From Callipepla californica brunnescens (taxonomy: Eukaryota > Chordata > Aves > Galliformes > Odontophoridae), in contig JALIRH010000125.1 in the NCBI GenBank assembly GCA_023055505.1, forward strand, positions 75,001 to 139,000: a stretch of DNA of 64,000 nt, written 5' to 3'. The notes below the pieces were generated by a model, which was given only the letters and a program-made list of their open reading frames with translations, did no database searches and was not told where the DNA came from. This document shows, piece after piece, positions 29,242-64,000 of the stretch (the first letter of the stretch is position 1; every line of letters starts with the position of its first letter). A program made the position numbers and the translations under genes.

Positions 29242-29265
29242 GTCAAGTCCATACAGTAGCTGGTC

Positions 29266-34637: not shown

Positions 34638-34799
34638 TAAGGGTTAGGGTTAGGGTAAGAATTAGGATAGGGATTGTGATACAGTTAAGGTAAGGGTTAG
34701 GAATTAGGGTTAGGGTTAGGGTTAGGGTTAGGTTTAGGTTTAGGGTTAGGGTTAGGGTTAGGGTTAGGGTTAATGTAGTTTAGGGCTAGGGTTAGGGTT

Positions 34800-35909: not shown

Positions 35910-37090
35910 AGGGAAGGGTCCTAAAAGGGCCTTGGCTAAGGGTGAGTTTTAGTATTTGATTTAGCGTTGCGTTCAGGTCTAGGTTAGTTTGAGTGTCAGG
36001 CTGAGAGAAGGGGTAGGCCTTGGGTTTGGTTCTGGCTTAGTGTTAGGTTTAGGAATAGGAATAGTTTTGGTGTTTGGATTGGGTTTGGGGTTAGTAGTAG
36101 GGATTGGATTGGGGTTAGTGTTAGGTGAGATCTGCGGTAATCTGATGCTTTCTTTGAGGCTTGAGGTTTGAGCTTAAACGTGGTGTTGGTTTTAGGGTAG
36201 GATTTAGGGCTAGGGTTTGGTTGAGGGTAGCATTAGGTTTAGGTTTAGGGGAAGGGTTTTGGTTAGGGTAGAGGTTCGAATTCTGGTTTGGGTTAGGAAT
36301 AGGGTTCTGGACAAGGTAAGGATTTAGTCCTAGGTTTCCAGTTAGGGTAAGGTGAAGTGCTGGTGTTCTAGTTAGGAGAAGAGTTAGGTTGAGGTTTCGG
36401 GTTAGGTTTTTTTGTCGATTTAGGTTTTAGGTAAGGGGTAGATTTTAGACAACATGAGCTTTCTGGTCAGAGTAGGGTTAGGCCTTAGAATATGGATAAG
36501 ATTAGGATAAATGTAGGGTTAGTTTCGGGTTTAGGTTAGTTTGAGTGTTAGGCTGAGAGAAGGGGAGGGCCTTGGGTTTGGGTTTGGTTTAGGGTTAAGA
36601 TAAGGTTTAGGAATAGGAGTAGGTTTGGGGTTTGGATTGGGTTTGGGGTTAGCTTTAGGGCTAGGTTTTGGTTTTGGTTTCGAGTTAGGTGAGGGTTGTG
36701 GTAATCTGATGCTTTGTTCAAGTTTTAGGGTTGGGCTTCAATTTGGGTTTTGGATTAGGATCAGAGTTAGGGATAGCTTGAAGGTAGAGTTAGGATTCGG
36801 GTAATAGCTACAGTGATTCTTATGGAGACGATTTGGGTCAAGGGTAAGTATTAGGCTTAGCTTATGATTTAGAGTTAGCTTTAGGTTTAGGATTAGAGTT
36901 GTGGTTTTGGTTGGGAGTAGGGTTAGTGCTAGGTTTGAGGTTAGGGTTAGGGTTAGGTTTAGCATTTCAAGTAAGGCTTAGGGTTATGCTTAGGTTGAGG
37001 TTGAGGGTTAGGTTGTGAGTTAGGGCAAAGATTGTGGATAGGGTAAAGGTTGGAGCTTGGATTAGTTTTCGGGTTAGCAATAGTCTTAGG

Positions 37091-38050
37091 TGTCATTTCT
37101 CCTCTAGACAAATCAGGTGTGATTCCACTGCTTCGAAATATTCAGCAAGAAACCGTATAATCAGAGCACCGCAAAAGCCCCCTTTACCAAGTAGATCACA
37201 CCAGCAGCGAGCTTTCTGTTCGAATGGCGCTGATCTGCGAATTCCGATTCTATGGCATCAATCGCGGCTCCTGCGGCTCTTGCCGCTGAAGAAAGACGAG
37301 CGTCATCAAGGTGCCGTGCAATGAATAGCGGCTTCAAGAATCAGCCGGCAGAGGTCCTAATCAAGCAAATCGCGGTTTCCATGTGAAAGTGACTCCGTTT
37401 CAGGAGTTGGAAGTGAATGGAAGCTGAATCCTAATATTAATGGGAGGGTAAGTTTGGATTCTCATTCTGCTCTGCAACTGTATACAACGTATGTCGGCAT
37501 CATTCATTCATCTGCGAGCACGTTTTCATTCTTTTTCTCTGAGCAGTGTTCTTCTCCTTTTTAGTACCTCTAGATAATACCGACACACTAGTTTTTATGT
37601 CGAAGAAACGGATCATTCCGATGTTCATTTGGAACGGTATGATATTCAGAGCTAAAGAAGTCAAATAGTAGCGTTGAATACGTCAAGCTGTTTTTTCTAC
37701 CAAATGCATTGTGTGATTCAACCGCTTCGAAATGTTCCCCAAAAACACTGTCATCGGAGCATTGCAAAAGCCTTCTTTAAAAAGGAGAGCAAAACGGCTG
37801 CGAGCTTTCTATTTGAAACGAGAAGAACTGCGTATCAGGCTCGAATCGCATCAATCGCGGCTATTGCTGCTTTTGCCGCTGAAGAAAGACGCCAATAAAA
37901 CGACAGACGTGCACTGAATAGCGGCATCAATAATTGCCGGTTGCGGTCAAATTTCATCCAATCGCGTCTAACACGTGAAAGTGACTCCGTTTCAGGAGTT
38001 GTAAGAGAATGCATGCTGGATCCCAAACTTAGTGGGAGGGAAAGATTTGA
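37091..38050. repeat. Divergent edge of the satellite
   Basis: The first monomers are shorter or rearranged and carry many differences (for example GCGGCTCCTGCGGCTCTTGC at about 37264). Spacings are not the regular 591 bp. Degenerate monomers at an array edge are normal for satellites homogenised in the centre. Confidence 0.8.
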
Positions 38051-41000
38051 TTCTCGTGTGTGATTCTACCGCTTCTAAATGTTCCTCATAAAACCTTGTC
38101 ACCGGAGCTTCGTAATGGCTCCCTTTAAGAAGCAGAGCAAAGCGGCCGAGAGTTTGATGCTCGAACCGCGCTTAGCAGCGGATTCCCATTCAAACGCATC
38201 AATCGCGGCTCCTGCTGCTCTTGCCGCTGAAGAAAGACGCCAGTCAGACAGCAGCAGTGCACTGAATCGCGGCTTTTCAAAAATCAGCCGGTAGCGGTCC
38301 TAATCGAGCAAATCGCGATTTACACGTGAAAGTGACTCGGTTTCAGGAGTTGTAAGAGAATGTGTGCTGGATCCCAGTGTCAATAGGATGGAAAGTTTTG
38401 ATTCTCATTCTGCTCTGCTACTGAATGCAACGTAAGTCTGCATCATTCATTCATCTGCGAGCACGTTTTCATTCTTTTCTCCTACCAGTGTTGGTATCGT
38501 TTTTACTTCCACAATGTACCACATTCACTTCAATTTTCTTACAATACACGTGGATCGTTCTCATTTTCTCTCAAAAAGGTATGTTTTTCAGAACTATGGA
38601 AGCAATGGAGAGGAGTTAAGTACGAAAATTTAATTCTCCCAATGGTATGTGTGATTCTACAGCTTCTAAATGTTCCCCAGAAAACCTTGTCACCGGAGCA
38701 TCGGAATAGCCCCATTTAAGAAGCAGTGCAAAGCGGCCGAGAGTTTGATGCTCGAACCGCGCTTAGCCGCGGATTCCGATTCAATCGCACCAGTCGCGGC
38801 TCCTGCTGCTTTTGCCGCTGAAGAAAGACGCTAGTCAGCCGGTAAAAGTGCACTGAATCGCGGCTTCAGTAATCAGCCGGTAGCGGTTCTATTCCAACAA
38901 ATCGCGGTTTACACGTGAAAGTGACTCGGTTTCAGGAGTTGTATGTGTATGTATGCTGCATCCCAGTGTTAGTGGGAGGGAAAGTTTTGATTCTGATTCT
39001 GCTCTACTACTGAATGCAACGTATGTCTGCATCATTCATTCATCTACGAGCACGTTTTCATTCTTTTCTCTGACCAGTCATGTTACCTTTTTTAGTTCCT
39101 CTAGTTAATATCGTCACACAAGTTTTTCTTGCCAAACAAACAATTCATTCCCTTTTTCTTTGGAACGGTATGGTATTCAGAGCTAAAAAGTCAAATAGTA
39201 GCGTTAAGTACGTCAAGCTGCCTCTTCTATCAAATGTATATTTGATTCCACCTCTTTTAAGTGTTCCCCAAAAACACTGCCAGTGGAGATTTCCTTAAGC
39301 CACTTCAAACGAACATAGCAAACCGGCAGCGTGTTAATGTTCTAAACGCGAAGAACTTTGAATTCAGCTCGAATCGCATCAATCGCGGCTACTGCTGCTT
39401 TTGCCGCTGAAGAAAGACGCCAATCAGACGGCAGCAGTGCACTGAATCCCGGCTTTTCAAAAATCAGCCGGTAGCGGTTCTTCTCCAAAAATTCTCGGTT
39501 TACACGTGAAAGTGACTCGGTTTCAGGAGTTGTAAGTGTATGTATGCTGCATCCCAATTTTAGTGGGAGGGAAAGTTTTGATTCTCATTCTGTTCTGCTA
39601 CTGAATGCAACGTATGTCTGCATCGTTCATTCATCTACGAGCACGTTTTCATTCTTTTCTCTGACCAGTGCTGTTATCCTTTTTACTTCCTTAATGTAAT
39701 ACACTCACTTGAATTTTCTTACAATACCGGCGGATCTTTCTCATTCTCTCTCAAAAAGGGATGTTTTTCAGAACTATGGAAGCAATGGAGAGACGTTAAG
39801 TACGGAAAGATAATTCCTCTCCCAAAGGTGTGTGTGATTCCACCGCTTCTAAGGGTTCCCCAGAAAACCTTGTCACCGGAGCATCGGAATAGCTCCCTTT
39901 AGAAGCAGAGAAAAAGCGGCAGAGAATTTGATGCTCGAACCGCGCTTAGCCGCGGATTCCGATTCAATCGCACCAATCGCGGCTCCTGCTGCTTTTGCCG
40001 CTGAAGAAAGACGCCAGTCAGCCGGCTGCCGTGTACTGAATCGCGGCATCAATAATCAGCCGGTAGCGGTTTTTCTTTAACAAATCGCGGTTTACACGTG
40101 AAAGTGACTCGGTTTCAGGAGTTGTAAGTGTATGTATGCTGCATCCCAATTTTAGTGGGAGGGAAAGTTTTGATTCTCATTCTGCTCTGCTACTGAATGC
40201 AACGTATGTCTGCATCATTCATTCATCTACGAGCACGTTTTCATTCTTGACTCTGACCAGTGTTGTTATTCTTTTTCGTACTTCTAGTTAATACATGGAA
40301 AAACTTTTTCTTGTCGAACACAAGTATCTTTCGATTCTCTTTTGCAAAAGTATGGTATTCAGAGATAAAGAGGCAAAAGAGAAAAGTTTATTACGGAAAG
40401 CTGTTTCTTCTACTAATTGCATTGTGTGATTGCACCGCTTCTATATGTTCCCCAAAAACACTGTCATCTGAGCATTGCAAAAGCTCCCTTTAACAAACAT
40501 AGCAAACCGGCAGCGAGCTAATGTTCGAACCGCGGAAAACCGTGAATCATGTTCGAATCGCATCAATCGCGGCTCCTGCTGCTTTTGCCGCTGAAGAAAG
40601 ACGCCAGTCAGTTGAAAGACGTGCACTGAATTGCGTCTTCAGTAATCAGCCCGTAGCGGTTCTATTCCAACAAATCGCGGTTGAAACCTGAAAGTGACTC
40701 CAATTCTGGTGTTGTAAGTGAATGGATGCTGGATCCCAGTGTTAGTGAGAGGGAAAGTTTTGATTCTCATTCTGCTCTACTACTGAATGCAACGTATGCC
40801 TGCATCATTCAATCATCTACGAGCACGTTTTCATTCCTTTCTCTGACCAGTCTTGTTATTCCTTTTCCTACCTCTTTTTAATATCGTCACACAAGTTTTT
40901 CTTGCCAAACAAACAATTCATTCCCTTTTTCTTTTGGAACGGTATGGTATTCAGAGCTAAAAAGTCAAATAGTAGCGTTAAGTACGTTAAACTTTTTCTT

Positions 41001-44000
41001 CTACCAAATGTATGTTTGATTCCACCTCTTCTAAGTGTTCCCCAAAAACACTGTCAGTGGAGCGTTGCAAAAGCCACTTTTAACAAACATAGCAAACCGG
41101 CAGCGTGTTAATGTTCGAACCGCGAAGAACCGCGTCTAAGGCTCGAATCGCATCAATCGCGGCTACTGCTGCTTTTGCCGCTGAAGAAAGACGCCAGTCA
41201 GGCGGCAGCAGTGCACTGAATCGCGGCTTTTCAAAAATCAGCCGGTAGCGGTCCTATTCCAACAATTCGCGGTTTACACGTGAAAGTGACTCGGTTTCTG
41301 GAGTTGGAAGAGAATGTGTGCTGGATCCCAGTGTTAATGGGAAGGAAAGTTTTGATTCTCATTCTGCTCTGCTACTGAATGCAACGTATGTCTGCATCGT
41401 TCATTCATCTGCGAGCACGTTTTCATTCTTTTCTCTGACCAGTGCTGTTATCCTTTTTACTTCCTCAATCTAACACATTCACTTCAATTTTCTTACAATA
41501 CCCGCGGATCTTTCTCATTCTCTCTCAAAAAGGTATGTTTTTCAGAACTATGAAAGCAATGGAGAGGCGTTAAGTACGGAAAGATAATTCCTCTCCCAAA
41601 GGTGTGTGTGATTCCACCGCTTCTAAGGGTTCCCCAGAAAACCTTGTCACCGGAGCATCGGAATAGCTCCCTTTAGAAGCAGAGAAAAAGCGGCAGAGAA
41701 TTTAATGCTCGAACCGCGCTTAGCCGCGGATTCCGATTCAATCGCACCAGTCGCGGCTCCTGCTGTTTTTGCCGCTGATGAAAATCGCTAGTCAGCCGGT
41801 AAAAGTGCACGGAATCGCGGCTTCAGTAATCAGCCGGTAGCGGTTCTTCTCCAACAAATCGCGGTTTACACGTGAAAGTGACTCGGTTTCTGGAGTTGTA
41901 TGTGTATGTATGCTGCATCCCAATTTTAGTGGGAGGGAAAGTTTTAATTCTCATTCTGCTCTGCTACTGAATGCAACGTATGTCTGCATCATTCATTCAT
42001 CTACGAGCACGTTTTCATTCTTTACTCTGACCAGTGTTGTTATTCTTTTTCGTACTTCTAGTTAATACATGGAAAAACTTTTTCTTGTCGAACACAAGTA
42101 TCTTTCGATTCTCTATTGCAAAAGTATGGTATTCAGAGATAAAGAAGCAAAAGAGAAACGTTTATTAAGGAAAGCTGTTTCCTCTACCAAATGGATGTGT
42201 GATTCCACCGCTTATAAGTGTTCCCCAAAAACACTGTCATCTGAGCATTGCAAATGCTACCTTTTACAAACATAGCAAACCGGTAGCGAGCTAATGTTCG
42301 AACCGCGGAAAACCGTGAATCATGTTCGAATCGCATCAATCGCGGCTCCTGCTGCTTTTGCCGCTGAAGAAAGAAGCCAGTCAGTTGAAAGACGTGCACT
42401 GAATTGCATCTTCAGTAATCAGCCGGCAGCGTTTCTATTCCAACAAATCGCGGCTGAAACCTGAAAGTGACTCCAATTCTGGTGTTGTAAGTGTATGTAT
42501 GTTGCATCCCAATGTTAGTGGGAGGGAAAGTTTTGATTCTCATTCTGCTCTACTACTGAATGCAACGTATGTCTGCATCATTCATTCATCTACGAGCACG
42601 TTTTCATTCCTTTCTCTGACCAGTCTTGTTATTCCTTTTCCTACCTCTTTTTAATCTCGTCACACAGATTTTTACTTGCCAAACAAACAATTCATTCCCT
42701 TTTTCTTTTGGAACGGTATGGTATTCAGAGCTAAAAAGTCAAATAGTAGCGTTAAGTACGTTAAACTTTTTCTTCTACCAAATGTATGTTTGATTCCACC
42801 TCTTCTAAGTGTTCCCCAAAAACACTGTCAGTGGAGCGTTGCAAAAGCCACTTTTAACAAACATAGCAAACCGGCAGAGTGTTAATATTCGAACCGCGAA
42901 GAACCTCGGATTCCGCTCGAATCTCATCAATCGCGGCTCCTGCTGCTTTTGCCGCTGAAGAAAGACGCCAGTCAGGCGGCAGCAGTGCACTGAATCGCGG
43001 CTTTTCAAAAATCAGCCGGTAGCGGTCCTTATCCAACAATTCGCGGTTTACACGTGAAAGTGACTCGGTTTCTGGAGTTGGAAGAGAATGTGTGCTGGAT
43101 CCCAGTGTTAATGGGAAGGAAAGTTTTGATTCTCATTCTGCTCTACTACTGAATGCAACGTATGTCTGCATCGTTCATTCATCTGCGAGCACGTTTTCCT
43201 TCTTTTCTCTGACCAGTGCTGTTATCCTTTTTACTTCCTCAATCTAACACATTCACTTCAATTTTCTTACAATACCCGCGGATCTTTCTCATTCTCTCTC
43301 AAAAAGGGATGTTTTTCAGAACTATGGAAGCAATGGAGAGGCGTTAAGTACGGAAAGCTGGTTCCTCTCCCAAAGGCGTGTGTGATTCCAGCGCTTCTAA
43401 GGGTTCCCCAGAAAACCTTGTCACCGGAGCATCGGAATAGCCCCCTTTAGAAGCAGAGAAAAAGCGGCAGAGAATTTGATGCTCGAACCGCGCTTAGCCG
43501 CGGATTCCCATTCAACCGCACCAGTTGCGGCTCCTGCTGCTTTTGCCGCTGATGAAAGACGCTAGTCAGCTGGTAAAAGTGCATGGAATCGCGGCTTCAG
43601 TAATCAGCCGGTAGCGGTTCTTCTCCAACAAATCGCGGTTTACACGTGAAAGTGACTCGGTTTCAGGAGTTGTAAGTGTATGTATGCTGCATCCCAATGT
43701 TAGTGGGAGGGAAAGTTTTGATTCTCATTCTGCTCTGCTACTGAATGCAACGTATGTCTGCATCATTCATTCATCTACGAGCACGTTTTCATTCTTTACT
43801 CTGACCAGTGTTGTTATTCTTTTTCGTACTTCTAGTTAATACATGGAAAAACATTTTCTTGTCGAACACAAGTATCTTTCGATTCTCTTTTGCAAAAGTA
43901 TGGTATTCAGAGATAAAGAAGCAAAAGAGAAACGTTTATTAAGGAAAGCTGTTTCCTCTACCAAATGGATGTGTGATTGCACCGCTTCTATATGTTCCCC

Positions 44001-47000
44001 AAAAACACTGTCATCTGAGCACTGCAAAAGCTCCCTTTAACAAACATAGCAAACCGGCAGCGTGCTAATGTTCGAACCACGGAAAACCGTGAATCATGTT
44101 CGAATCGCATCAATCGCGGCTCCTGCTGCTTTTGCCGCTGAAGAAAGAAGCCAGTCAGTTGAAAGACGTGCACTGAATTGCGTCTTCAGTAATCAGCCGG
44201 CAGCGTTTCTATTCCAACAAATCGCGGTTGAAAACTGAAAGTGACTCCAATTCTGGTGTTGTAAGTGAATGGATGCTGGATCCCAGTGTTAGTGAGAGGG
44301 AAAGTTTTGATTCTCATTCTGCTCTACTACTGAATGCAACGTATGTCTGCATCATTCATTCATCTACGAGCACGTTTTCATTCCTTTCTCTGACCAGTCT
44401 TGTTATTCCTTTTCCTACCTCTAGTTAATATCGTCACACAAGTTTTTCGTGCCAAACAAACAATTCATTCCCTTTTTCTTTTGGAACGGTATGGTATTCA
44501 GAGCTAAATAGTCAAATAGTAGCGTTAAGTACGTTAAACTTTTTCTTCTACCAAATGTATGTTTGATTCCACCTCTTCTAAGTGTTCCCCAAAAACACTG
44601 TCAGTGGAGCGTTGCAAAAGCCACTTTTAACAAACATAGCAAACCGGCAGCGTGTTAATGTTCGAACCGCGAAGAACCGCGTCTAAGGCTCGAATCGCAT
44701 CAATCGCGGCTCCTGCTGCTTTTGCCGCTGAAGAAAGACGCCAGTCAGACGGCAGCAGTGCACTGAATCGCGGCTTTTCAAAAATCAGCCGGTAGCGGTT
44801 CTTCTCCAACAATTCGCGGTTTACACGTGAAAGTGACTCGGTTTCAGGAGTTGGAAGAGAATGTGTGCTGGATCCCAGTTTAAATAGGAGTGAAAGTGTT
44901 AATTCTTATTCTGCTCTGTTACTGAGTGCAACGTACGTCTGAATCGTTCATTCATCTGCGAGAACATTTTCATTCTTTTATCTGACCAGTGCTGTTATCC
45001 TTTTTACTTCCTTAATCTAATACACACACTTGAATTTTCTTACAATACCGGCGGATCTTTCTCATTCTCTCTCAAAAAGGGATGTTTTTCAGAACTATGG
45101 AAGCAATGGAGAGACGTTAAGTACGGAAAGATAATTCCTCTCCCAAAGGTGTGTGTGATTCCACCGCTTCTAAGGGTTCCCCAGAAAACCTTGTCACCGG
45201 AGCATCGGAATAGCCCCCTTTAGAAGCAGAGAAAAAGCGGCCGAGAGTTTGATGCTCGAACCGCGCTTAGCCGCGGATTCCGATTCAATCGCACCAATCG
45301 CGGCTCCTGCTGCTTTTGCCGCTGAAGAAAGACGCCAGTCAGCCGGCTGCCGTGCACTGAATCGCGGCATCAATAATCAGCCGGTAGCGGTTTTTCTTTA
45401 ACAAAGCGGGGTTTACACGTGAAAGTGACTCGGTTTCAGGAGTTGTAAGTGTATGTATGCTGCATCCCAATTTCAGTGGGAGGGAAAGTTTTGATTCTCA
45501 TTCTGCTCTGCTACTGAATGCAACGTATGTCTGCATCATTCATTCATCTACGAGCACGTTTTCATTCTTTACTCTGACCAGTGTTGTTATTCTTTTTCGT
45601 ACTTCTAGTTAATACATGGAAAAACTTTTTCTTGTCGAACACAAGTATCTTTCGATTCTCTTTTGCAAAAGTATGGTATTCAGAGATAAAGAAGCAAAAG
45701 AGAAACGTTTATTACGGAAAGCTGTTTCTTCTACTAATTGCATTGTGTGATTCCACCGCTTCTAAATGTTCCCCAAAAACACTGTCATCTGAGCATTGCA
45801 AAAGCTCCCTTTAACAAACATAGCAAACCGGCAGCGTGCTAATGTTCGAACCGCGGAAAACCGTGAATCATGTTCGAATCGCATCAATCGCGGCTCCTGC
45901 TGCTTTTGCCGCTGAAGAAAGAAGCCAGTCAGTTGAAAGACGTGCACTGAATTGCGTCTTCAGTAATCAGCCGGCTGCGTTTCTATTCCAACCAATCGCT
46001 GTTGAAACCTGAAAGTGACTCCAATTCTGGTGTTGTAAGTGAATGGATGCTGGATCCCAGTGTCAGTGAGAGGGAAAGTTTTGATTCTCATTCTGCTCTA
46101 CTACTGAATGCAACGTATGTCTGCATCATTCATTCATCTACGAGCACGTTTTCATTCTTTTCTCTGAGCAGTCTTGTTATTCCTTTTCCTAAATCTAGTT
46201 AATATCGTCACACAAGTTTTTACTTGCCAAACAAACAATTCATTCCCTTTTTCTTTTGGAACAGTATGGTATTCAGAGCTAAAAAGTCCAATACTAGCGT
46301 TAAGTACGTCAAGCTGTTTCTTCTACCAAATGTATGTTTGATTCACCACTTCTAAGTGTTCCCCAAAACACTGTCAGTGGAGCGTTGCAAAAGCCTTCTT
46401 TAACAAGCAGAGCAAACCGGCAGCGTGTTAATATTCGAACCGCGAAGAACCGCGTCTCAGGCTCGAATCGCATCAATCGCGGCTCCTGCTGCTTTTGCCG
46501 CTGAAGAAAGACGCCAGCCAGACAGCAGCAGTGCACTGAATCGCGGCTTTTCAAAAATCAGCCGTTAGCGGACCTATTCCAACAATTCGCGGTTTACACG
46601 TGAAAGTGACTCGGTTTCAGGAGTTGGAAGAGAATGTATGCTGGATCCCATTGTTACTGGGAAGGAAAGTTTTGATTCTCATTCTGCTCTGCTACTGAAT
46701 GCAACGTATGTCTGAATCGTTCATTCATCTGCGAGCACGTTTTCCTTCTTTCTTGACCAGTGCTGTTGTCCTTTTTACTTCCTCAATCTAACACATTCAC
46801 TTCAATTTTCTTACAATACCCGCGGATCTTTCTCATTCTCTCTCAAAAAGGTATGTTTTTCAGAACTATGGAAGCAATGGAGAGGCGTTAAGTACGGAAA
46901 GCTGGTTCCTCTCCCATAGGCGTGTGTGATTCCACCGCTTCTAAGGGTTCCCCAGAAAACCTTGTCACCGGAGTATCGGAATAGCCCCCTTTAAGAAGCA

Positions 47001-49745
47001 GAGAAAAAGCGGCAGAGAATTTGATGCTCGAACCGCGCTTAGCCGCGGATTCCGATTCAATCGCACCAATCGCGGCTCCTGCTGCTTTTGCCGCTGAAGA
47101 AGGACGCCAGTCAGCCGGTAAAAGTGCACTGAATCGCGGCTTCAGTAATCAGCCGGTAGCGGTTCTTCTCCAACAAATCGCGGTTTACACGTGAAAGTGA
47201 CTCCGTTTCAGGAGTTGTAAGTGTATGTATGTTGCATCCCAATGTTAGTGGGAGGGAAAGTTTTGATTCTCATTCTGCTCTGCTACTGAATGCAACGTAC
47301 GACTGCATCGTTCATTCATCTACGAGCACGTTTTCATTCTTTTCTCTGACCAGTCTTGTTATTCCTTTTCCTACCTCTTTTTAATATCGTCACACAAGTT
47401 TTTCTTGCCAAACAAACAATTCATTCCCTTTTTCTTTTGGATTGGTATGGTATTCAGAGCTAAAAAGTCAAATAGTAGCGTTAAGTACGTTAAACTTTTT
47501 CTTCTACCAAATGTATGTTTGATTCCACCTCTTCTAAGTGTTCCCCAAAAAGACTATCATCGGAGCTTTGCAAAAGCCTTCTTTAACAAGCAAAGCAAAC
47601 CGGCAGAGTGTTAATATTCGAAACGCTCAGAACCTCGGATTCCGCTCGAATCTCATCAATCGCGGCTCCTGCTGCTTTTGCCGCTGAAGAAAGACGCCAG
47701 TCAGACGGCAGCAGTGCACTGAATCGCGGCTTTTCAAAAATCAGCCGGTAGCGGTTCTTCTCCAAAAATTCGCGGTTTACACGTGAAAGTGACTCGGTTT
47801 CAGGAGTTGGAAGAGAATGTGTGCTGGATCCCAGTTTTAATAGATGTGAAAGTTTTAATTCTTATTCTGCTCTGTTACTGTATGTAACGTACGTGTGAAT
47901 CGTTCATTCATCTGCGAGCACGTTTTCATTCTTTTCTCTGACCAGTGCTGTTATCCTTTTTACTTCCTTAATCTAATACACTCACTTGAATTTTCTTACA
48001 ATACCCGCGGATCTTTCTCATTCTCTCTCAAAAAGGTATGTTTTTCAGAACTATGAAAGCAATGGAGAGGCGTTAAGTACGGAAAGATAATTACTCTCCC
48101 AAAGGTGTGTGTGATTCCACCGCTTCTAAGGGTTCCACAGAAAACCTTGTCACCGGAGCATCGGAATAGCCCCCTTTAGAAGCAGAGAAAAAGCGGCAGA
48201 GAATTTGATGCTCGAACCGCGCTTAGCCGCGGGTACCGATTCAATCGCACCAGTCGCGGCTCCTGCTGCTTTTGCCGCTGAAGAAAGACGCTAGTCAGCC
48301 GGTAAAAGTGCACGGAATCGCGGCTTCAGTAATCAGCTGGTAGCGGTTCTTCTCCAACAAATCGCGGTTTACACGTGAAAGTGACTCGTTTTCTGGAGTT
48401 GTATGTGTATGTATGCTGCATCCCAATGTTAGTGGGAGGGAAAGTTTTAATTCTCATTCTGCTCTGCTACTGAATGCAACGTATGTCTGCATCATTCATT
48501 CATCTACGAGCACGTTTTCATTCTTTACTCTGACCAGTGTTGTTATTCTTTTTCGTACTTCTAGTTAATACATGGAAAAACTTTTTCTTGTCGAACACAA
48601 GTATCTTTCGATTCTCTATTGCAAAAGTATGGTATTCAGAGATAATGAAGCAAAAGAGAAACGTTTATTAAGGAAAGCTGTTTCCTCTATCAAATGGATG
48701 TGTGATTCCACCGCTTATAAGTGTTCCCCAAAAACACTGTCATCTGAGCATTGCAAATGCTACCTTTTACAAACATAGCAAACCGGTAGCGAGCTAATGT
48801 TCGAACCGCGGAAAACCGTGAATCATGTTCGAATCGCATCAATCGCGGCTCCTGCTGCTTTTGCCGCTGAAGAAAGACGCCAGTCAGTTGAAAGACGTGC
48901 ACTGAATTGCGTCTTCAGTAATCAGCCGGTAGCGGTTCTATTCCAACAAATCGCGGTTGAAACCTGAAAGTGACTCCAATTCTGGTGTTGTAAGTGAATG
49001 GATGCTGGATCCCAGTGTCAGTGAGAGGGTAAGTTTTGATTCTCATTCTGCTCTACTACTGAATGCAACGTATGTCTGCATCATTCATTCATCTGCGAGC
49101 ACGTTTTCATTCCTTTCTCTGACCAGTGCTGTTATCCTTTTTACTTCCTCAATCTAACACATTCACTTCAATTTTCTTACAATACCCGCGGATCTTTCTC
49201 ATTCTCTCTCAAAAAGGTATGTTTTTCAGAACTATGGAAGCAATGGAGAGGCGTTAAGTACGGAAAGCTGGTTCCTCTCCCAAAGGCGTGTGTGATTCCA
49301 GCGCTTCTAAGGGTTCCCCAGAAAACCTTGTCACCAGAGCATCGGAATAGCCCCCTTTAGAAGCAGAGAAAAAGCGGCAGAGAATTTGATGCTCGAACCG
49401 CGCTTAGCCGCGGATTCCCATTCAACCGCACCAGTCGCGGCTCCTGCTGCTTTTGCCGATGAAGAAAGACGCTAGTCAGCCGGTAAAAGTGCACTGAATC
49501 GCGGCTTCAGTAATCAGCCGGTAGCGATTCTATTCCAACAAATCGCGGTTTACACGTGAAAGTGACTATGTTTCAGGAGTTGTATGTGTATGTATGCTGC
49601 ATCCCAATGTTAGTGGGAGGGAAAGTTTTGATTCTCATTCTGCTCTACTACTGAATGCAACGTATCTCTGCATCATTCATTCATCTACGAGCACGTTTTC
49701 ATTCTTTACTCTGACCAGTGTTGTTATTCTTTTTCGTACTTCTAG
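38051..49745. repeat. Satellite section with 1.77-kb A-B-C trimers and local irregularities
   Basis: After C-B-C at 38.5-39.7 kb, trimers A-B-C repeat from about 40.26 kb. Equivalent B points at 40902 and 42676 are 1774 bp apart, three times 591. Four trimers in a row are followed by B-C, then A-C and another A. The missing B near 49 kb indicates loss of one monomer. B at 46.2 kb and its following C-B-C match 50.4-52.1 kb closely. Confidence 0.9.
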
Positions 49746-52700: not shown

Positions 52701-55659
52701 AGTTAATACCGTCACACAAGTTTTTCTTGCCAAACAAACAATTCATTCCCTTTTTCTTTTGGAACGGTATGGTATTCAGAGCTAAAAAGTCAAATAGTAG
52801 CGTTAAGTACGTCAAGCTGTTTCTTCTATCAAATGTATATTTGATTCCACCTCTTCTAAGTGTTCCCCAAAAACACTATCATCGGAGCTTTGCAAAAGCC
52901 ACTTCAAACAAACATAGCAAACCGGCAGCGTGTTAATGTTCGAACCGCGAAGAACTTTGAATTTCGCTCGAATCTCATCAATCGCGGCTACTGCTGCTTT
53001 TGCCGCCTAAGAAAGACGCCAGTCAGCCGGTAAAAGTGCACTGAATCGCGGCTTCAGTAATCAGCAGGTAGCGGTTCTTCTCCAACAAATCGCGGTTTAC
53101 ACGTGAAAGTGACTCGGTTTCAGGAGTTGGAAGAGAATGTGTACTGGATCCCAGTGTTAATGGGAAGAAAAGTTTTGATTCTCATTCTGCTCTGTTACTG
53201 AATGCAACGTATGTCTGCATCGTTCATTCATCTGCGAGCACGTTTTCATTCTTTTCTCTGACCAGTGCTGTTATCCTTTTTACTTCCTTAATCTAATACA
53301 CTCACTTGAATTTTCTTACAATACCCGCGGATCTTTCTCATTCTCTCTCAAAAAGGTATGTTTTTCAGAACTATGAAAGCAATGGAGAGGCGTTAAGTAC
53401 GGAAAGATAATTCCTCACCCAAAGGCGTGTATGATTCCACCGCTTCTAAGGGTTCCCCAGAAAACCTTGTCACCGGAGCATCGGAATAGCTCCCTTTAGA
53501 AGCAGAGAAAAAGCGGCAGAGAATTTGATGCTCGAACCGCGCTTAGCCGCGGATTCCCATTCAATCGCACCAGTCGCGGCTCCTGCTGCTTTTGCCGCTG
53601 AAGAAAGACGCCAGTCAGCCTGCTGCCGTGCACTGAATCGCGGCATCAATAATCAGCCGGTAGCTGTTCTTCTTTAACAAATCGCGGTTTACACGTGAAA
53701 GTGACTCGGTTTCAGGAGTTGTAAGTGTATGTATGCTGCATCCCAATGTTAGTGGGAGGGAAAGTTTTAATTCTCATTCTGCTCTGCTACTGAATGCAAC
53801 GTATGTCTGCATCATTCATTCATCTACGAGCACGTTTTCATTCTTTACTCTGACCAGTGTTGTTATTCTTTTTCGTACTTCTAGTTAATACATGGAAAAA
53901 CTTTTTCTTGTCGAACACAAGTATCTTTCGATTCTCTTTTGCAAAAGTATGGTATTCAGAGATAGAGAAGCAAAAGAGAAAAGTTTATTACGGATAGCTG
54001 TTTCTTCTACTAATTGCATTGTGTGATTGCACCGCTTCTATATGTTCCCCAAAAACACTGTCATCTGAGCATTGCAAAAGCTCCCTTTAACAAACATAGC
54101 AAAAAGGCATCGTGCTAATGTTCGAACCGCGGAAAACCGTGAATCATGTTCGAATCGCATCAATCGCGGCTCTTGCTGCTTTTGCCGCTGAAGAAAGAAG
54201 CCAGTCAGTTGAAAGACGTGCACTGAATTGCATCTTCAGTAATCAGCCGGCAGCGTTTCTATTCCAACAAATCGCGGCTGAAACCTGAAAGTGACTCCAA
54301 TTCTGGTGTTGTAAGTGAATGGATGCTGGATCCCAGTGTTAGTGGGAGGGAAAGTTTTGATTCTCATTCTGCTCTACTACTGAATGCAACGTATGTCTGC
54401 ATCATTCATTCATCTACGAGCACGTTTTCATTCCTTTCTCTGACCAGTCTTGTTATTCCTTTTCCTACCTCTTTTTAATCTCGTCACACAGATTTTTACT
54501 TGCCAAACAAACAATTCATTCCCTTTTTCTTTTGGAACGGTATGGTATTCAGAGCTAAAAAGTCAAATAGTAGCGTTAAGTACGTTAAACTTTTTCTTCT
54601 ACCAAATGTATGTTTGATTCCACCTCTTCTAAGTGTTCCCCAAAAACACTGTCAGTGGAGCGTTGCAAAAGCCACTTTTAACAAACATAGCAAACCGGCA
54701 GAGTGTTAATATTCGAACCGCTCAGAACCTCGGATTCCGCTCGAATCTCATCAATCGCGGCTCCTGCTGCTTTTGCCGCTGAAGAAAGACGCCAGTCAGG
54801 CGGCAGCAGTGCACTGAATCGCGGCTTTTCAAAAATCAGCCGGTAGCGGTCCTATTCCAACAATTCGCGGTTTACACGTGAAAGTGACTCGGTTTCTGGA
54901 GTTGGAAGAGAATGTGTGCTGGATCCCAGTGTTAATGGGAAGGAAAGTTTTGATTCTCATTCTGCTCTACTACTGAATGCAACGTATGTCTGCATCGTTC
55001 ATTCATCTGCGAGCACGTTTTCCTTCTTTTCTCTGACCAGTGCTGTTATCCTTTTTACTTCCTCAATCTAACACATTCACTTCAATTTTCTTACAATACC
55101 CGCGGATCTTTCTCATTCTCTCTCAAAAAGGGATGTTTTTCAGAACTATGGAAGCAATGGAGAGGCGTTAAGTACGGAAAGCTGGTTCCTCTCCCAAAGG
55201 CGTGTGTGATTCCACCGCTTCTAAGGGTTCCCCAGAAAACCTTGTCACCGGAGCATCGGAATAGCCCCCTTTAGAAGCAGAGAAAAAGCGGCAGAGAATT
55301 TGATGCTCGAACCGCGCTTAGCCGCGGATTCCCATTCAACCGCACCAGTCGCGGCTCCTGCTGCTTTTGCCGCTGAAGAAAGACGCTAGTCAGCTGGTAA
55401 AAGTGCATGGAATCGCGGCTTCAGTAATCAGCCGGTAGCGGTTCTTCTCCAACAAATCGCGGTTTACACGTGAAAATGACTCGGTTTCAGGAGTTGTATG
55501 TGTATGTATGCTGCATCCCAATGTTAGTGGGAGGGAAAGTTTTGATTCTCATTCTGCTCTACTACTGAATGCAACGTATGTCTGCATCATTCATTCATCT
55601 ACGAGCACGTTTTCATTCTTTACTCTGACCAGTGTTGTTATTCTTTTTCGTACTTCTAG
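49746..55659. repeat. 5.91-kb higher-order repeat, copy 1
   Basis: Ten monomers in the order A B C B C B C A B C. Comparable points in copies 2 and 3 are 5914 and 5913 bp later. Phase is set arbitrarily at an A monomer. Confidence 0.92.
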
Positions 55660-58600
55660 TTAATACATGGAAAAACTTTTTCTTGTCGAACACAAGTATC
55701 TTTCGATTCTCTTTTGCAAAAGTATGGTATTCAGAGATAGAGAAGCAAAAGAGAAACGTTTATTAAGGAAAGCTGTTTCCTCTACCAAATGGATGTGTGA
55801 TTGCACCGCTTCTATATGTTCCCCAAAAACACTGTCATCTGAGCATTGCAAAAGCTCCCTTTAACAAACATAGCAAACCGGTAGCGAGCAAATGTTCGAA
55901 CCGCGGAAAACCGTGAATCATGTTCGAATCGCATCAATCGCGGCTCCTGCTGCTTTTGCCGCTGAAGAAAGAAGCCAGTCAGTTGAAAGACGTGCACTGA
56001 ATTGCGTCTTCAGTAATCAGCCGGCAGCGTTTCTATTCCAACCAATCGCTGTTGAAACCTGAAAGTGACTCCAATTCTGGTGTTGTAAGTGAATGGATGC
56101 TGGATCCCAGTGTCAGTGAGAGGGAAAGTTTTGATTCTCATTCTGCTCTACTACTGAATGCAACGTATGTCTGCATCATTCATTCATCTACGAGCACGTT
56201 TTCATTCTTTTCTCTGAGCAGTCTTGTTATTCCTTTTCCTAAATCTAGTTAATATCGTCACACAAGTTTTTACTTGCCAAACAAACAATTCATTCCCTTT
56301 TTCTTTTGGAACGGTATGGTATATAGCGCTAAAAAGTCCAATACTAGCGTTAAGTACGTCAAGCTGTTTCTTCTACCAAATGTATGTTTGATTCACCACT
56401 TCTAAGTGTTCCCCAAAACACTGTCAGTGGAGCGTTGCAAAAGCCTTCTTTAACAAGCAGAGCAAACCGGCAGCGTGTTAATATTCGAACCGCGAAGAAC
56501 CGCGTCTCAGGCTCGAATCGCATCAATCGCGGCTCCTGCTGCTTTTGCCGCTGAAGAAAGACGCCAGCCAGACAGCAGCAGTGCACTGAATCGCGGCTTT
56601 TCAAAAATCAGCCGTTAGCGGACCCATTCCAACAATTCGCGGTTTACACGTGAAAGTGACTCGGTTTCAGGAGTTGGAAGAGAATGTATGCTGGATCCCA
56701 TTGTTACTGGGAAGGAAAGTTTTGATTCTCATTCTGCTCTGCTACTGAATGCAACGTATGTCTGAATCGTTCATTCATCTGCGAGCACGTTTTCCTTCTT
56801 TCTCTGACCAGTGCTGTTGTCCTTTTTACTTCCTCAATCTAACACATTCACTTCAATTTTCTTACAATACCCGCGGATCTTTCTCATTCTCTCTCAAAAA
56901 GGGATGTTTTTCAGAACTATGGAAGCAATGGAGAGGCGTTAAGTACGGAAAGCTGGTTCCTCTCCCATAGGCGTGTGTGATTCCACCGCTTCTAAGGGTT
57001 CCCCAGAAAACCTTGTCACCGGAGCATCGGAATAGCCCCCTTTAAGAACAGAGAAAAAGCGGCAGAGAATTTGATGCTCGAAACGCGCTTAGCCGCGGAT
57101 TCCGATTCAATCGCACCAATCGCGGCTCCTGCTGCTTTTGCCGCTGAAGAAGGACGCCAGTCAGCCGGTAAAAGTGCACTGAATCGCGGCTTCAGTAATC
57201 AGCCGGTAGCGGTTCTATTCCAACAAATCGCGGTTTACACGTGAAAGTGACTCCGTTTCAGGAGTTGTAAGTGTATGTATGTTGCATCCCAATGTTAGTG
57301 GGAGGGAAAGTTTTGATTCTCATTCTGCTCTACTACTGAATGAAACGTACGACTGCATCGTTCATTCATCTACGAGCACGTTTTCATTCTTTTCTCTGAC
57401 CAGTCTTGTTATTCCTTTTCCTACCTCTTTTTAATATCGTCACACAAGTTTTTCTTGCCAAACAAACAATTCATTCCCTTTTTCTTTTGGAACGGTATGA
57501 TATTCAGAGCTAAAAAGTCAAATAGTAGCGTTAAGTACGTTAAACTTTTTCTTCTACCAAATGTATGTTTGATTCCACCTCTTCTAAGTGTTCCCCAAAA
57601 ACACTATCATCGGAGCTTTGCAAAAGCCTTCTTTAACAAGCAGAGCAAACCGGCAGAGTGTTAATATTCGAAACGCTCAGAACCTCGGATTCCGCTCGAA
57701 TCTCATCAATCGCGGCTCCTGCTGCTTTTGCCGCTGAAGAAAGACGCCAGTCAGACGGCAGCAGTGCACTGAATCGCGGCTTTTCAAAAATCAGCCGGTA
57801 GCGGTTCTTCTCCAACAATTCGCGGTTTACACGTGAAAGTGACTCGGTTTCTGGAGTTGGAAGAGAATGTGTGCTGGATCCCAGTTTTAATAGAAGTGAA
57901 AGTTTTAATTCTTATTCTGCTCTACTACTGAATGCAACGTACGTGTGAATCGTTCATTCATCTGCGGGCACGTTTTCCTTCTTTTCTCTGACCAGTGCTG
58001 TTATCCTTTTTACTTCCTTAATCTAATACACTCACTTGAATTTTCTTACAATACCCGCGGATCTTTCTCATTCTCTCTCAAAAAGGTATGTTTTTCAGAA
58101 CTATGGAAGCAATGGAGAGGCGTTAAGTACGGAAAGCTGGTTCCTCTCCCAAAGGCGTGTGTGATTCCACCGCTTCTAAGGGTTCCACAGAAAACCTTGT
58201 CACCGGAGCATCGGAATAGCCCCCTTTAAGATGCAGAGAAAATGCGGCAGAGAGTTTGATGCTCGAACCGCGCTTAGCCGCGGATTCCCATTCAATCGCA
58301 TCAATCGCGGCTCCTGCTGCTTTTGCCGCTGAAGAAAGAAGCCAGTCAGCCGGTAAAAGTGCACGGAATCGCGGCTTCAGTAATCAGCCGGTAGCGGTTC
58401 TTCTCCAACAAATCGCGGTTTACACGTGAAAGTTACACCGTTTCAAGAGTTGTATGTGTATGTATGCTGCATCCCAATTTTAGTGGGAGGGAAAGTTTTG
58501 ATTCTCATTCTGCTCTACTACTGAATGCAACGTATGTCTGCATCGTTCATTCATCTACGAGCACGTTTTCATTCTTTTCTCTGACCAGTCTTGTTATTCC

Positions 58601-61572
58601 TTTTTTAGTTCCTCTAGTTAATACCGTCACACAAGTTTTTCTTGCCAAACAAACAATTCATTCCCTTTTTCTTTTCGAACGGTATGGTATTCAGAGCTAA
58701 AAAGTCAAATAGTAGCGTTAAGTACGTCAAGCTGTTTCTTCTATCAAATGTATATTTGATTCCACCTCTTCTAAGTGTTCCCCAAAAACACTATCATCGG
58801 AGCTTTGCAAAAGCCACTTCAAACAAACATAGCAAACCGGCAGCGTGTTAATGTTCGAACCGCGAAGAACTTTGAATTTCGCTCGAATCTCATCAATCGC
58901 GGCTACTGCTGCTTTTGCCGCCTAAGAAAGACGCCAGTCAGCCGGTAAAAGTGCACTGAATCGCGGCTTCAGTAATCAGCAGGTAGCGGTTCTTCTCCAA
59001 CAAATCGCGGTTTACACGTGAAAGTGACTCGGTTTCAGGAGTTGGAAGAGAATGTGTGCTGGATCCCAGTGTTAATGGGAAGAAAAGTTTTGATTCTCAT
59101 TGCTCTGCTACTGAATGCAACGTATGTCTGCATCGTTCATTCATCTGCGAGCACGTTTTCATTCTTTTCTCTGACCAGTGCTGTTATCCTTTTTACTTCC
59201 TTAATCTAATACACTCACTTGAATTTTCTTACAATACCCGCGGATCTTTCTCATTCTCTCTCAAAAAGGTATGTTTTTCAGAACTATGAAAGCAATGGAG
59301 AGGCGTTAAGTACGGAAAGATAATTCCTCACCCAAAGGCGTGTATGATTCCACCGCTTCTAAGGGTTCCCCAGAAAACCTTGTCACCGGAGCATCGGAAT
59401 AGCTCCCTTTAGAAGCAGAGAAAAAGCGGCAGAGAATTTGATGCTCGAACCGCGCTTAGCCGCGGATTCCGATTCAATCGCACCAGTCGCGGCTCCTGCT
59501 GCTTTTGCCGCTGAAGAAAGACGCCAGTCAGCCTGCTGCCGTGCACTGAATCGCGGCATCAATAATCAGCCGGTAGCTGTTCTTCTTTAACAAATCGCGG
59601 TTTACACGTGAAAGTGACTCGGTTTCAGGAGCTGTAAGTGTATGTATGCTGCATCCCAATGTTAGTGGGAGGGAAAGTTTTAATTCTCATTCTGCTCTGC
59701 TACTGAATGCAACGTATGTCTGCATCATTCATTCATCTACGAGCACGTTTTCATTCTTTACTCTGACCAGTGTTGTTATTCTTTTTCGTACTTCTAGTTA
59801 ATACATGGAAAAACTTTTTCTTGTCGAACACAAGTATCTTTCGATTCTCTTTTGCAAAAGTATGGTATTCAGAGATAAAGAAGCAAAAGAGAAAAGTTTA
59901 TTACGGAAAGCTGTTTCTTCTACTAATTGCATTGTGTGATTGCACCGCTTCTATATGTTCCCCAAAAACACTGTCATCTGAGCATTGCAAAAGCTCCCTT
60001 TAACAAACATAGCAAACCGGCAGCGTGCTAATGTTCGAACCGCGGAAAACCGTGAATCATGTTCGAATCGCATCAATCGCGGCTCCTGCTGCTTTTGCCG
60101 CTGAAGAAAGAAGCCAGTCAGTTGAAAGACGTGCACTGAATTGCGTCTTCAGTAATCAGCCGGCAGCGTTTCTATTCCAACAAATCGCGGTTGAAACCTG
60201 AAAGTGACTCCAATTCTGGTGTTGTAAGTGTATGTATGTTGCATCCCAATGTTAGTGGGAGGGAAAGTTTTGATTCTCATTCTGCTCTACTACTGAATGC
60301 AACGTATGTCTGCATCATTCATTCATCTACGAGCACGTTTTCATTCCTTTCTCTGACCAGTCTTGTTATTCCTTTTCCTACCTTTTTTTAATATCGTCAC
60401 ACAGATTTTTACTTGCCAAACAAACAATTCATTCCCTTTTTCTTTTGGAACGGTATGGTATTCAGAGCTAAAAAGTCAAATAGTAGCGTTAAGTACGTTA
60501 AACTTTTTCTTCTACCAAATGTATGTTTGATTCCACCTCTTCTAAGTGTTCCCCAAAAACACTGTCAGTGGAGCGTTGCAAAAGCCACTTTTAACAAACA
60601 TAGCAAACCGGCAGAGTGTTAATATTCGAACCGCTCAGAACCTCGGATTCCGCTCGAATCTCATCAATCGCGGCTCCTGCTGCTTTTGCCGCTGAAGAAA
60701 GACGCCAGTCAGGCGGCAGCAGTGCACTGAATCGCGGCTTTTCAAAAATCAGCCGGTAGCGGTCCTATTCCAACAATTCGCGGTTTACACGTGAAAGTGA
60801 CTCGGTTTCTGGAGTTGGAAGAGAATGTGTGCTGGATCCCAGTGTTAATGGGAAGGAAAGTTTTGATTCTCATTCTGCTCTACTACTGAATGCAACGTAT
60901 GTCTGCATCGTTCATTCATCTGCGAGCACGTTTTCCTTCTTTTCTCTGACCAGTGCTGTTATCCTTTTTACTTCCTCAATCTAACACATTCACTTCAATT
61001 TTCTTACAATACCCGCGGATCTTTCTCATTCTCTCTCAAAAAGGTATGTTTTTCAGAACTATGGAAGCAATGGAGAGGCGTTAAGTACGGAAAGCTGGTT
61101 CCTCTCCCAAAGGCGTGTGTGATTCCACCGCTTCTAAGGGTTCCCCAGAAAACCTTGTCACCGGAGCATCGGAATAGCCCCCTTTAGAAGCAGAGAAAAA
61201 GCGGCAGAGAATTTGATGCTCGAACCGCGCTTAGCCGCGGATTCCCATTCAACCGCACCAGTCGCGGCTCCTGCTGCTTTTGCCGCTGAAGAAAGACGCT
61301 AGTCAGCTGGTAAAAGTGCATGGAATCGCGGCTTCAGTAATCAGCCGGTAGCGGTTCTTCTCCAACAAATCGCGGTTTACACGTGAAAATGACTCGGTTT
61401 CAGGAGTTGTATGTGTATGTATGCTGCATCCCAATGTTAGTGGGAGGGAAAGTTTTGATTCTCATTCTGCTCTACTACTGAATGCAACGTATCTCTGCAT
61501 CATTCATTCATCTACGAGCACGTTTTCATTCTTTACTCTGACCAGTGTTGTTATTCTTTTTCGTACTTCTAG
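55660..61572. repeat. 5.91-kb higher-order repeat, copy 2
   Basis: Same ten-monomer order as copy 1. In a stretch of about 110 bp at the A monomer only three differences are seen from copy 1, while neighbouring A and B monomers differ far more. This is classic higher-order homogenisation. Confidence 0.92.
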
Positions 61573-64000
61573 TTAATACATGGAAAAACTTTTTCTTGTC
61601 GAACACAAGTATCTTTCGATTCTCTTTTGCAAAAGTATGGTATTCAGAGATAAAGAAGCAAAAGAGAAACGTTTATTAAGGAAAGCTGTTTCCTCTACCA
61701 AATGGATGTGTGATTGCACCGCTTCTATATGTTCCCCAAAAACACTGTCATCTGAGCATTGCAAAAGCTCCCTTTAACAAACATAGCAAACCGGTAGCGA
61801 GCAAATGTTCGAACCGCGGAAAACCGTGAATCATGTTCGAATCGCATCAATCGCGGCTCCTGCTGCTTTTGCCGCTGAAGAAAGAAGCCAGTCAGTTGAA
61901 AGACGTGCACTGAATTGCGTCTTCAGTAATCAGCCGGCAGCGTTTCTATTCCAACCAATCGCTGTTGAAACCTGAAAGTGACTCCAATTCTGGTGTTGTA
62001 AGTGAATGGATGCTGGATCCCAGTGTCAGTGAGAGGGAAAGTTTTGATTCTCATTCTGCTCTACTACTGAATGCAACGTATGTCTGCATCATTCATTCAT
62101 CTACGAGCACGTTTTCATTCTTTTCTCTGAGCAGTCTTGTTATTCCTTTTCCTAAATCTAGTTAATATCGTCACACAAGTTTTTACTTGCCAAACAAACA
62201 ATTCATTCCCTTTTTCTTTTGGAACGGTATGGTATTCAGCGCTAAAAAGTCCAATACTAGCGTTAAGTACGTCAAGCTGTTTCTTCTACCAAATGTATGT
62301 TTGATTCACCACTTCTAAGTGTTCCCCAAAACACTGTCAGTGGAGCGTTGCAAAAGCCTTCTTTAACAAGCAGAGCAAACCGGCAGCGTGTTAATATTCG
62401 AACCGCGAAGAACCGCGTCTCAGGCTCGAATCGCATCAATCGCGGCTCCTGCTGCTTTTGCCGCTGAAGAAAGACGCCAGCCAGACAGCAGCAGTGCACT
62501 GAATCGCGGCTTTTCAAAAATCAGCCGTTAGCGGACCCATTCCAACAATTCGCGGTTTACACGTGAAAGTGACTCGGTTTCAGGAGTTGGAAGAGAATGT
62601 ATGCTGGATCCCATTGTTACTGGGAAGGAAAGTTTTGATTCTCATTCTGCTCTGCTACTGAATGCAACGTATGTCTGAATCGTTCATTCATCTGCGAGCA
62701 CGTTTTCATTCTTTCTCTGACCAGTGCTGTTGTCCTTTTTACTTCCTCAAATTAACACATTCACTTCAATTTTCTTACAATACCCGCGGATCTTTCTCAT
62801 TCTCTCTCAAAAAGGGATGTTTTTCAGAACTATGGAAGCAATGGAGAGGCGTTAAGTACGGAAAGCTGGTTCCTCTCCCATAGGCGTGTGTGATTCCACC
62901 GCTTCTAAGGGTTCCCCAGAAAACCTTGTCACCGGAGCATCGGAATAGCCCCCTTTAAGAACAGAGAAAAAGCGGCAGAGAATTTGATGCTCGAAACGCG
63001 CTTAGCCGCGGATTCCGATTCAATCGCACCAATCGCGGCTCCTGCTGCTTTTGCCGCTGAAGAAGGACGCCAGTCAGCCGGTAAAAGTGCACTGAATCGC
63101 GGCTTCAGTAATCAGCCGGTAGCGGTTCTATTCCAACAAATCGCGGTTTACACGTGAAAGTGACTCCGTTTCAGGAGTTGTAAGTGTATGTATGTTGCAT
63201 CCCAATGTTAGTGGGAGGGAAAGTTTTGATTCTCATTCTGCTCTACTACTGAATGAAACGTACGACTGCATCGTTCATTCATCTACGAGCACGTTTTCAT
63301 TCTTTTCTCTGACCAGTCTTGTTATTCCTTTTCCTACCTCTTTTTAATATCGTCACACAAGTTTTTCTTGCCAAACAAACAATTCATTCCCTTTTTCTTT
63401 TGGAACGGTATGATATTCAGAGCTAAAAAGTCAAATAGTAGCGTTAAGTACGTTAAACTTTTTCTTCTACCAAATGTATGTTTGATTCCACCTCTTCTAA
63501 GTGTTCCCCAAAAACACTATCATCGGAGCTTTGCAAAAGCCTTCTTTAACAAGCAGAGCAAACCGGCAGAGTGTTAATATTCGAAACGCTCAGAACCTCG
63601 GATTCCGCTCGAATCTCATCAATCGCGGCTCCTGCTGCTTTTGCCGCTGAAGAAAGACGCCAGTCAGACGGCAGCAGTGCACTGAATCGCGGCTTTTCAA
63701 AAATCAGCCGGTAGCGGTTCTTCTCCAACAATTCGCGGTTTACACGTGAAAGTGACTCGGTTTCTGGAGTTGGAAGAGAATGTGTGCTGGATCCCAGTTT
63801 TAATAGAAGTGAAAGTTTTAATTCTTATTCTGCTCTACTACTGAATGCAACGTACGTGTGAATCGTTCATTCATCTGCGGGCACGTTTTCCTTCTTTTCT
63901 CTGACCAGTGCTGTTATCCTTTTTACTTCCTTAATCTAATACACTCACTTGAATTTTCTTACAATACCCGCGGATCTTTCTCATTCTCTCTCAAAAAGGT
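61573..64000. repeat. 5.91-kb higher-order repeat, copy 3 (cut by window end)
   Basis: Begins A B C B C in register with copies 1 and 2 (for example B points at 51541, 57455 and 63368). The window ends inside a C monomer. Confidence 0.92.

Follow-up and report, generated by a model that had tools for sequence, protein, structure and literature searches.

A 591-bp satellite fills the right part of the 64,000-nucleotide stretch of Callipepla californica brunnescens DNA analysed here (the window), and we read it, with a probability of about 0.6, as a centromere-region heterochromatin satellite of New World quail. It would probably lie on several chromosomes and would be characterized by modules built through crossing-over, by copying of whole cassettes and by arrays that are unmethylated in the germline. 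The window corresponds to positions 75,001–139,000 of contig C125 (JALIRH010000125.1; 871,241 bp). A further 120 kb to its right was added to the analysis, and the genome searched comprises 321 contigs with 1,085,249,470 bases.

A tandem array with nested higher-order repeats

The satellite occupies window positions 37118–64000 on the forward strand and continues to contig position 144,058 (window coordinate 69058), where it ends in an A monomer cut after 253 bp. The whole array on C125 measures 31.9 kb, about 54 monomer lengths arranged head to tail. Monomer starts recur at 588–595 bp from 37118 to the window end, the sole exception being a 347-bp step at 37712, and 46 units, partial ones included, are listed in the window. 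The initial annotation had described a 591-bp tandem satellite at 37091–64000: the recurrent starts bear out the satellite and the repeated stretch is real, but the monomers begin at 37118 and the array runs past 64000. The array contains no stop-to-stop open reading frame of 150 amino acids or more, and the window no Rfam family at the gathering threshold and no tRNA.

Monomers fall into three subfamilies, A, B and C, whose consensus sequences are 79.3–79.8% identical to one another. Four successive A-B-C trimers of 1774 bp (39833–46924, forward strand) start at 39833, 41607, 43381 and 45154, in steps of 1774, 1774 and 1773 bp, exactly the trimer spacing that had been claimed. To their right lie copies of a ten-monomer unit, A B C b C b C A B C, on the same strand: copy 1 at 49291–55204, copy 2 at 55205–61117 and the window part of copy 3 at 61118–64000, with its end at 67032. 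In the rotation of the initial annotation, the starts at 49291, 55205 and 61118 are separated by 5914 and 5913 bp, as proposed; what had been called B in the BC-BC part is, however, a chimera of A and B, here named b, and the ten-mer is composed of two ABC trimers and two bC dimers. Distances between exact 20-mer pairs in the window peak at 5913, 5914, 11827 and 1774 bp. Among monomers 23–46 of the window, mean identity is 99.4% between unit copies (lag 10) against 78.3% between adjacent monomers (lag 1), which places the array among the higher-order-repeat satellites and supports the earlier suggestion that whole 5.91-kb units have been amplified.

With T standing for ABC and D for bC, the C125 array reads divergent edge, D, TTTT, D, A plus B/C chimera, T, DD, TT, DD, TT, DD, TT, cut A. 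The higher-order arrangement does not extend across the entire array as had been supposed: its first 2.7 kb (37118–39832, forward strand) is a divergent left edge made of chimeric and part-deleted monomers (AB, C-partial, AC, AB, C).

Within the monomer, A, B and C agree in 90–93% of columns 330–420 and in 29 of 30 columns from 150 to 180, and merely in 40–69% over columns 450–596 (counted in steps of 30 columns). The most uniform stretch of 60 columns contains 57 identical ones, compared with 55 at the 99.9th percentile of shuffles. Such a conserved core could result from constraint or from exchange. None of the three consensus sequences contains a CENP-B box with up to one mismatch allowed, and their dyad symmetries show no convincing enrichment: A has 14 where 7.3 would be expected, B has 10 (7.8 expected) and C has 6 (8.5 expected). 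A short internal period, either CNM-like or of half a monomer, was considered and dropped: no unit up to 500 bp long came up within the array, and comparing each of the three consensus sequences with itself gave no match longer than 15 bp.

Chimeric monomers and module variation

Overall, group b is 88.2% identical to A and 88.2% identical to B, with the two likenesses divided along the monomer. In seven of the first eight forty-column windows b matches A at 95–100%, and in the last four it matches B at 95–100%; the A-like part reaches about column 330 and the B-like part begins near column 440, and one 40-column window close to the 5' end is no nearer to A than to B. Being A-like in its 5' part and B-like in its 3' part, b is an A/B recombinant monomer. 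In one example (56976–57567, forward strand; 5' A, 3' B) the switch lies between columns 328 and 421. Further chimeras on this strand start at 38650 (more complex), 46925, 51062 (switch closer to the 5' end), 52246, 58160 and 62889.

Switches were called with a single fixed switch penalty over 121 monomers from seven contigs, a set in which at most two monomers are counted twice, since L005 and L030 have about 1.4 kb in common, and from which L006 and L007 were left out. No switch was called in 86 monomers, and the other 35 carry 51 switches in 21 classes. The switch interval begins at column 312 or 328 and ends by 468 in 14 of the 19 AB-typed monomers, the remaining five switching elsewhere (214–244, 418–421, 451–468). 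Nine of the 21 distinct classes fall within about a fifth of the monomer, its conserved core; since the classes are non-independent and half-monomer typing favours the core, no enrichment of breakpoints there is claimed.

A/B chimeras were typed on C125, C218, C100, C165, C188 and C158, and not in the short C120 stretch. The order of modules varies from contig to contig (T D T D T on C100, T T T D on C218, T T D T on C158), and C165 and C188 additionally contain orders (b B C; A B C/B C) that T and D do not account for. An exchange between adjacent A and B monomers, with loss of one monomer length, would convert T into D and fits the data. We take the pair at 48110–49290 (forward strand), an A followed by a B/C chimera and thus a dimer short of one monomer length, to result from a like exchange, here involving B and C.

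The arrays are embedded in a macro-repeat with telomere-like sequence

The flanks of the array on C125 form a macro-repeat. In the window it includes an 11-bp-based minisatellite, AGCTGCCCCAT (838–4871), and an 8-bp (ATTCTGAC)n-type repeat in pieces (4896–10582), both given without strand, as well as about 11 kb of degenerate telomere-like (GTTAGG)n repeat on the forward strand (10585–21853). This tract keeps a single orientation and recurs in the macro-repeat units of the C125 stretch examined. An interrupted proviral segment follows on the reverse strand (28001–31900; C125 103001–106900). Integrase and reverse-transcriptase domains are found in separate frames of this remnant (Pfam), a thumb domain stays below the cut-off, and two more frames match no Pfam family. 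Three other proviral copies in the 259 kb of C125 examined are 99.1–99.6% identical to the one in the window; because the copies share the same macro-repeat setting, spread by segmental amplification appears more likely than separate insertions. Degenerate telomere-like repeat (33663–37090, forward strand) forms the left flank of the array, and at the left junction (36900–37117, forward strand) the TTAGGG-strand repeat meets the satellite. The C125 array sits at a head-to-head switch of telomere-like repeats, from the TTAGGG strand (36900–37117) to the CCCTAA strand (contig position 144,059 onward).

The macro-repeat extends to other contigs: the first 600 bases of 11 out of 15 satellite-bearing contigs match it at 95.8–100%, while those of C76, C85, C91 and C120 give no match. 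Sampling of large contigs delimits blocks of it. On C49 (4.0 Mb), ten 300-bp samples between 640 and 850 kb match C125 at 92.7–100%, including one that falls in the satellite. Similarity is limited to 247 bases (86%) in the 900-kb sample and to 73 bases (85%) in the 2.0-Mb sample, and samples at 1.0 and 3.9 Mb have no match to C125. One 300-bp sample, 700 kb into this contig and within the block (L072, 700001–700300), is a near-perfect (CCCTAA)n tract (96.6%). On C57 (3.3 Mb) the block is present in five samples from 100 to 400 kb and absent from four samples from 500 kb onward. Close to its inner edge, the sample at 300001–300300 (L085) contains a more divergent satellite monomer, with only 85% identity to the C125 array. 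On C47 (4.2 Mb), junctions were scored at 3.78 and 3.94 Mb, and the samples at 1.0 and 3.0 Mb have no match and are minisatellite-like; C63 (3.0 Mb) matches at the contig start and not at 2.0 Mb. GC content beside the block reaches 72% in one 300-bp C49 sample. Because these four large contigs carry the block next to other sequence, they would imply at least two chromosomes if a block has no more than two edges.

These surroundings could suggest a subtelomeric macrosatellite, that is, blocks at chromosome ends derived from decayed telomere repeats in which the 591-bp arrays are simply carried along and play no part in the centromere. The flanks are indeed kilobases of degenerate telomere repeat, the near-perfect 300-bp telomere tract lies within the C49 block, and the sampled block positions are toward one end of C47, C49 and C57. 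We nevertheless find this rather unlikely. Chicken centromere cores are also marked by telomere repeats, which often lie within them, and higher-order centromere repeats of chicken occur beside (TTAGGG)n (available part of PMC9974502). Moreover, the telomere-like strands flip repeatedly in the block, and in acrocentric microchromosomes the centromere and the subtelomere are both near one end, so that the block positions would fit either reading.

CpG content and mutation spectrum of the satellite

The observed/expected ratio of CpG is 1.03 in the array, compared to 0.20–0.45 in seven comparison stretches (six from C125, one from C1); high values occur elsewhere too, exceeding 0.6 in three of 20 contig starts (0.65–0.84), all of them GC-rich. 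The satellite also shows no excess of mutation at its CpGs, where the transition rate is 0.46–1.03 times that of other C/G sites in four ways of counting: all variants (34/242 CpG against 133/807 other C/G sites), transitions in one monomer only (5/242 against 36/807), transitions shared with other groups (26/242 against 84/807) and transitions among the three ten-mer copies (2/584 against 15/2010).

The flanks behave differently. Transitions affect 9/202 CpG against 8/1143 other C/G sites in a non-proviral segment and 6/184 against 8/1582 in the proviral segment, so that CpG rates in the two are 6.4–6.6 times those of other C/G sites (pooled 15/386 against 16/2725, ratio 6.6, P 9e-7). A third, telomere-like segment (0/32 against 1/709) has too few CpGs and was kept outside the pool. 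Four pairwise flank comparisons give 33 CpG transitions over 1,300 sites and 33 other transitions over 24,809 sites, a contrast inflated by counting a site as CpG if either copy has one. Under the flank ratio the satellite counts are very improbable (2/17, P 7e-6; 5/41, P 9e-13), these being guide values since the monomers are related; direct tests of the flank against the ten-mer copies and against the singletons give P 0.013 and P 0.001. The ratio of transitions to transversions is low in the satellite (0.62, singletons). A transversion-rich satellite spectrum was dropped as a claim because the flank ratio outside CpG is equally low (33:35), and our claim is confined to the CpG difference.

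Because CpGs have been kept and show no hypermutability, unlike those of the flanks, the data suggest that the satellite is unmethylated in the germline, which is the simplest reading. Retention of CpG through GC-biased gene conversion, or merely through youth of the arrays, is an unlikely substitute. Frequent exchange between monomers is visible and would provide the opportunity for conversion; yet conversion follows mutation and youth leaves the spectrum unaltered, and neither accounts for the lack of a CpG excess in single-monomer changes or among ten-mer copies. Chicken centromere cores are described as undermethylated in the accessible text of PMC9974502. The duck repeat APL-HaeIII is highly methylated (excerpt of PMC6435179), and absence of methylation is therefore no general rule for bird satellites. 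The contrast between a satellite of full CpG content and its CpG-depleted, CpG-hypermutable flanks makes germline absence of methylation a simple prediction for long-read methylation data.

Islands with shared ends on many contigs

To locate related arrays, four DNA probes of 501–601 bp were used, and the best 40 of 2,071–3,011 candidates were scored per probe. Pooled matches of the four probes place close satellite copies on at least 49 contigs. Mean identity within contigs is hardly above that between contigs (A 96.6 against 95.3%, B 96.6 against 96.4%, C 93.8 against 93.6%). The initial annotation argued from chromosome-specific tandem arrays of chicken, a premise at odds with these figures; an array on a single chromosome is unsupported, the genome search and the between-contig homogenisation both speaking against it. 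It had also reckoned the centromeric candidacy weakened by presence on many chromosome arms or by a match to a named dispersed repeat. Part of that reservation applies: copies lie on many contigs and the repeat is probably a named one, but the copies sit in repeat-rich blocks.

The junctions of the array recur as well. The right junction is full length in the best 40 matches scored, over 20 contigs, and the left junction in the best 40 scored, over 27 contigs; these counts describe the best-scoring candidates and are not proof of identical ends for every island. The C165 array, for one, begins at a different left end, beside the opposite telomere strand. Past the right junction, C125 is 99.3% identical to C188 over 2.2 kb and 99.4% identical to C120 over 1.0 kb. 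In 15 of the 16 contigs with at least two scored junctions a single orientation prevails throughout, C82 being mixed. Seven islands could be paired at both ends, with lengths of 7.7, 7.8, 9.5, 10.1, 12.2, 19.5 and 31.9 kb, and the distance from one right junction to the next within a contig ranges from 61 to 762 kb among the best 40 scored. Because the best-scoring islands share both junctions with degenerate telomere repeats, they look like one ancestral cassette with private length changes, in what we consider the simplest reading.

Another account would make all these contigs pieces of one heterochromatic W chromosome. It would be in keeping with a highly repetitive sequence homogenised across contigs and with proviral copies in the macro-repeat, but we judge it improbable: the four contigs of 3.0–4.2 Mb (C47, C49, C57 and C63) in which the block lies beside other sequence fit several chromosomes, a point limited for C47 by the minisatellite-like nature of its two other samples. 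Finally, the near-identical junctions might tempt one to see a single array copied to many contigs by mis-assembly or haplotype duplication, which is very improbable because artefactual copies would not differ in higher-order structure (TTDD on C125, TD on C100, TTTD on C218), in length (7.7–31.9 kb) and in monomer sequence (about 4–6% apart between contigs).

A model for the origin of the islands

For the centromere-region satellite that we favour, the following course of events may be proposed. Unequal crossing-over would have reshaped an ancestral array of ABC trimers. The chimeras observed would stem from an A/B exchange, which would have produced b and with it the bC dimer. T and D modules are co-duplicated in local higher-order units (TTDD on C125, TD on C100). 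Islands with the same two ends and flanks would then have been copied genome-wide inside a macrosatellite that includes degenerate telomere repeats, minisatellites and the provirus remnant. The arrays would have escaped CpG decay, most simply through absent germline methylation, and may serve as centromeric or pericentromeric structural DNA, as the chicken precedent and the repeat CCA-BamHI suggest. The array offers a clear sequence record of how a higher-order repeat may originate: the passage from trimer to dimer is marked by the chimera, best explained by A/B crossover, and island-specific units are then assembled from T and D modules.

It is plausible that the arrays have a centromeric or pericentromeric role. 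Several findings weigh against the favoured model: the paired islands are small (7.7–31.9 kb, n = 7) and several occur per contig, in contrast to a single large centromeric array; the consensus sequences have no CENP-B box within one mismatch and no convincing dyad enrichment; and C165 and C188 hold deviating monomer orders, C165 also a different left end. A bolder and decidedly tentative version would have the arrays act as germline-unmethylated, centromere-competent islands spaced through methylated macrosatellite blocks on several chromosomes. If so, chromatin resembling a centromere core would be found at many near-identical cassettes per block rather than at one array, and the epigenetic state of the islands could be read from the mutation spectrum alone.

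Relation to known centromere repeats

Ishishita et al. in 2014 reportedly cloned centromeric repeats of New World quails, CCA-BamHI being the repeat of Callipepla californica, with a unit length that we take to be 591 bp. A BamHI site is present in the B and C consensus and absent from the A consensus and from b; of the 28 BamHI intervals in the array, eight are 591–593 bp, 15 are 1181–1185 bp and five have other lengths. Judged by unit length and BamHI sites, the satellite is most likely CCA-BamHI, a named centromere-region repeat. It is thus quite probable that the monomer is already known, with the higher-order, cassette and CpG results being new, and for quail genomics a cloned centromeric repeat is probably tied to its genomic context.

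Human alpha-satellite likewise has divergent monomers in a set order, near-identical higher-order copies and diverged edge monomers; no sequence relation is claimed, and the quail consensus differs in having no CENP-B box. The New World quail lineage indicated by lysozyme, a unit of 591 bp, the BamHI site in the B and C consensus and some BamHI spacings of 591–593 bp would link our satellite to CCA-BamHI. PMC6435179 counts CCA-BamHI among the repeats that are homogenised between macro- and microchromosomes, in keeping with the many contigs found here. The text consulted on CCA-BamHI mentions no higher-order structure, chimeras or macrosatellite context. A literature search, with Ishishita et al. 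2014 outside its reach, found no description of higher-order structure in the 591-bp satellite, and the accessible sections of PMC4992247, PMC10820513, PMC5559828 and PMC5704224 do not describe the satellite.

Chicken repeats offer further comparisons, drawn from the available part of PMC9974502. The CNM repeat likewise comes from the centromere regions of a galliform bird, forms higher-order units and lies close to telomere repeats, but its unit is about 41 bp, whereas the 591-bp satellite has no short internal period. The macrochromosome-specific centromere repeats of chicken are, like the quail satellite, tandem repeats without the CNM unit; in contrast to them, the quail satellite is on at least 49 contigs and homogenised between them.

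The initial annotation had argued from chicken centromeres, a premise that fails because the genome is not that of chicken: its lysozyme differs from that of hen at four residues, which excludes a chicken origin and points to New World quail. Four exon stretches on contig C1 give T40S, I55V, S91T and Q121H relative to hen lysozyme, which we take to be the changes of California quail lysozyme; serine-valine-threonine at residues 40, 55 and 91 presumably marks New World quail lysozyme. Among solved structures, a hen mutant carrying T40S, I55V and S91T matches best, and bobwhite quail lysozyme comes third, differing at residues 68 and 121.
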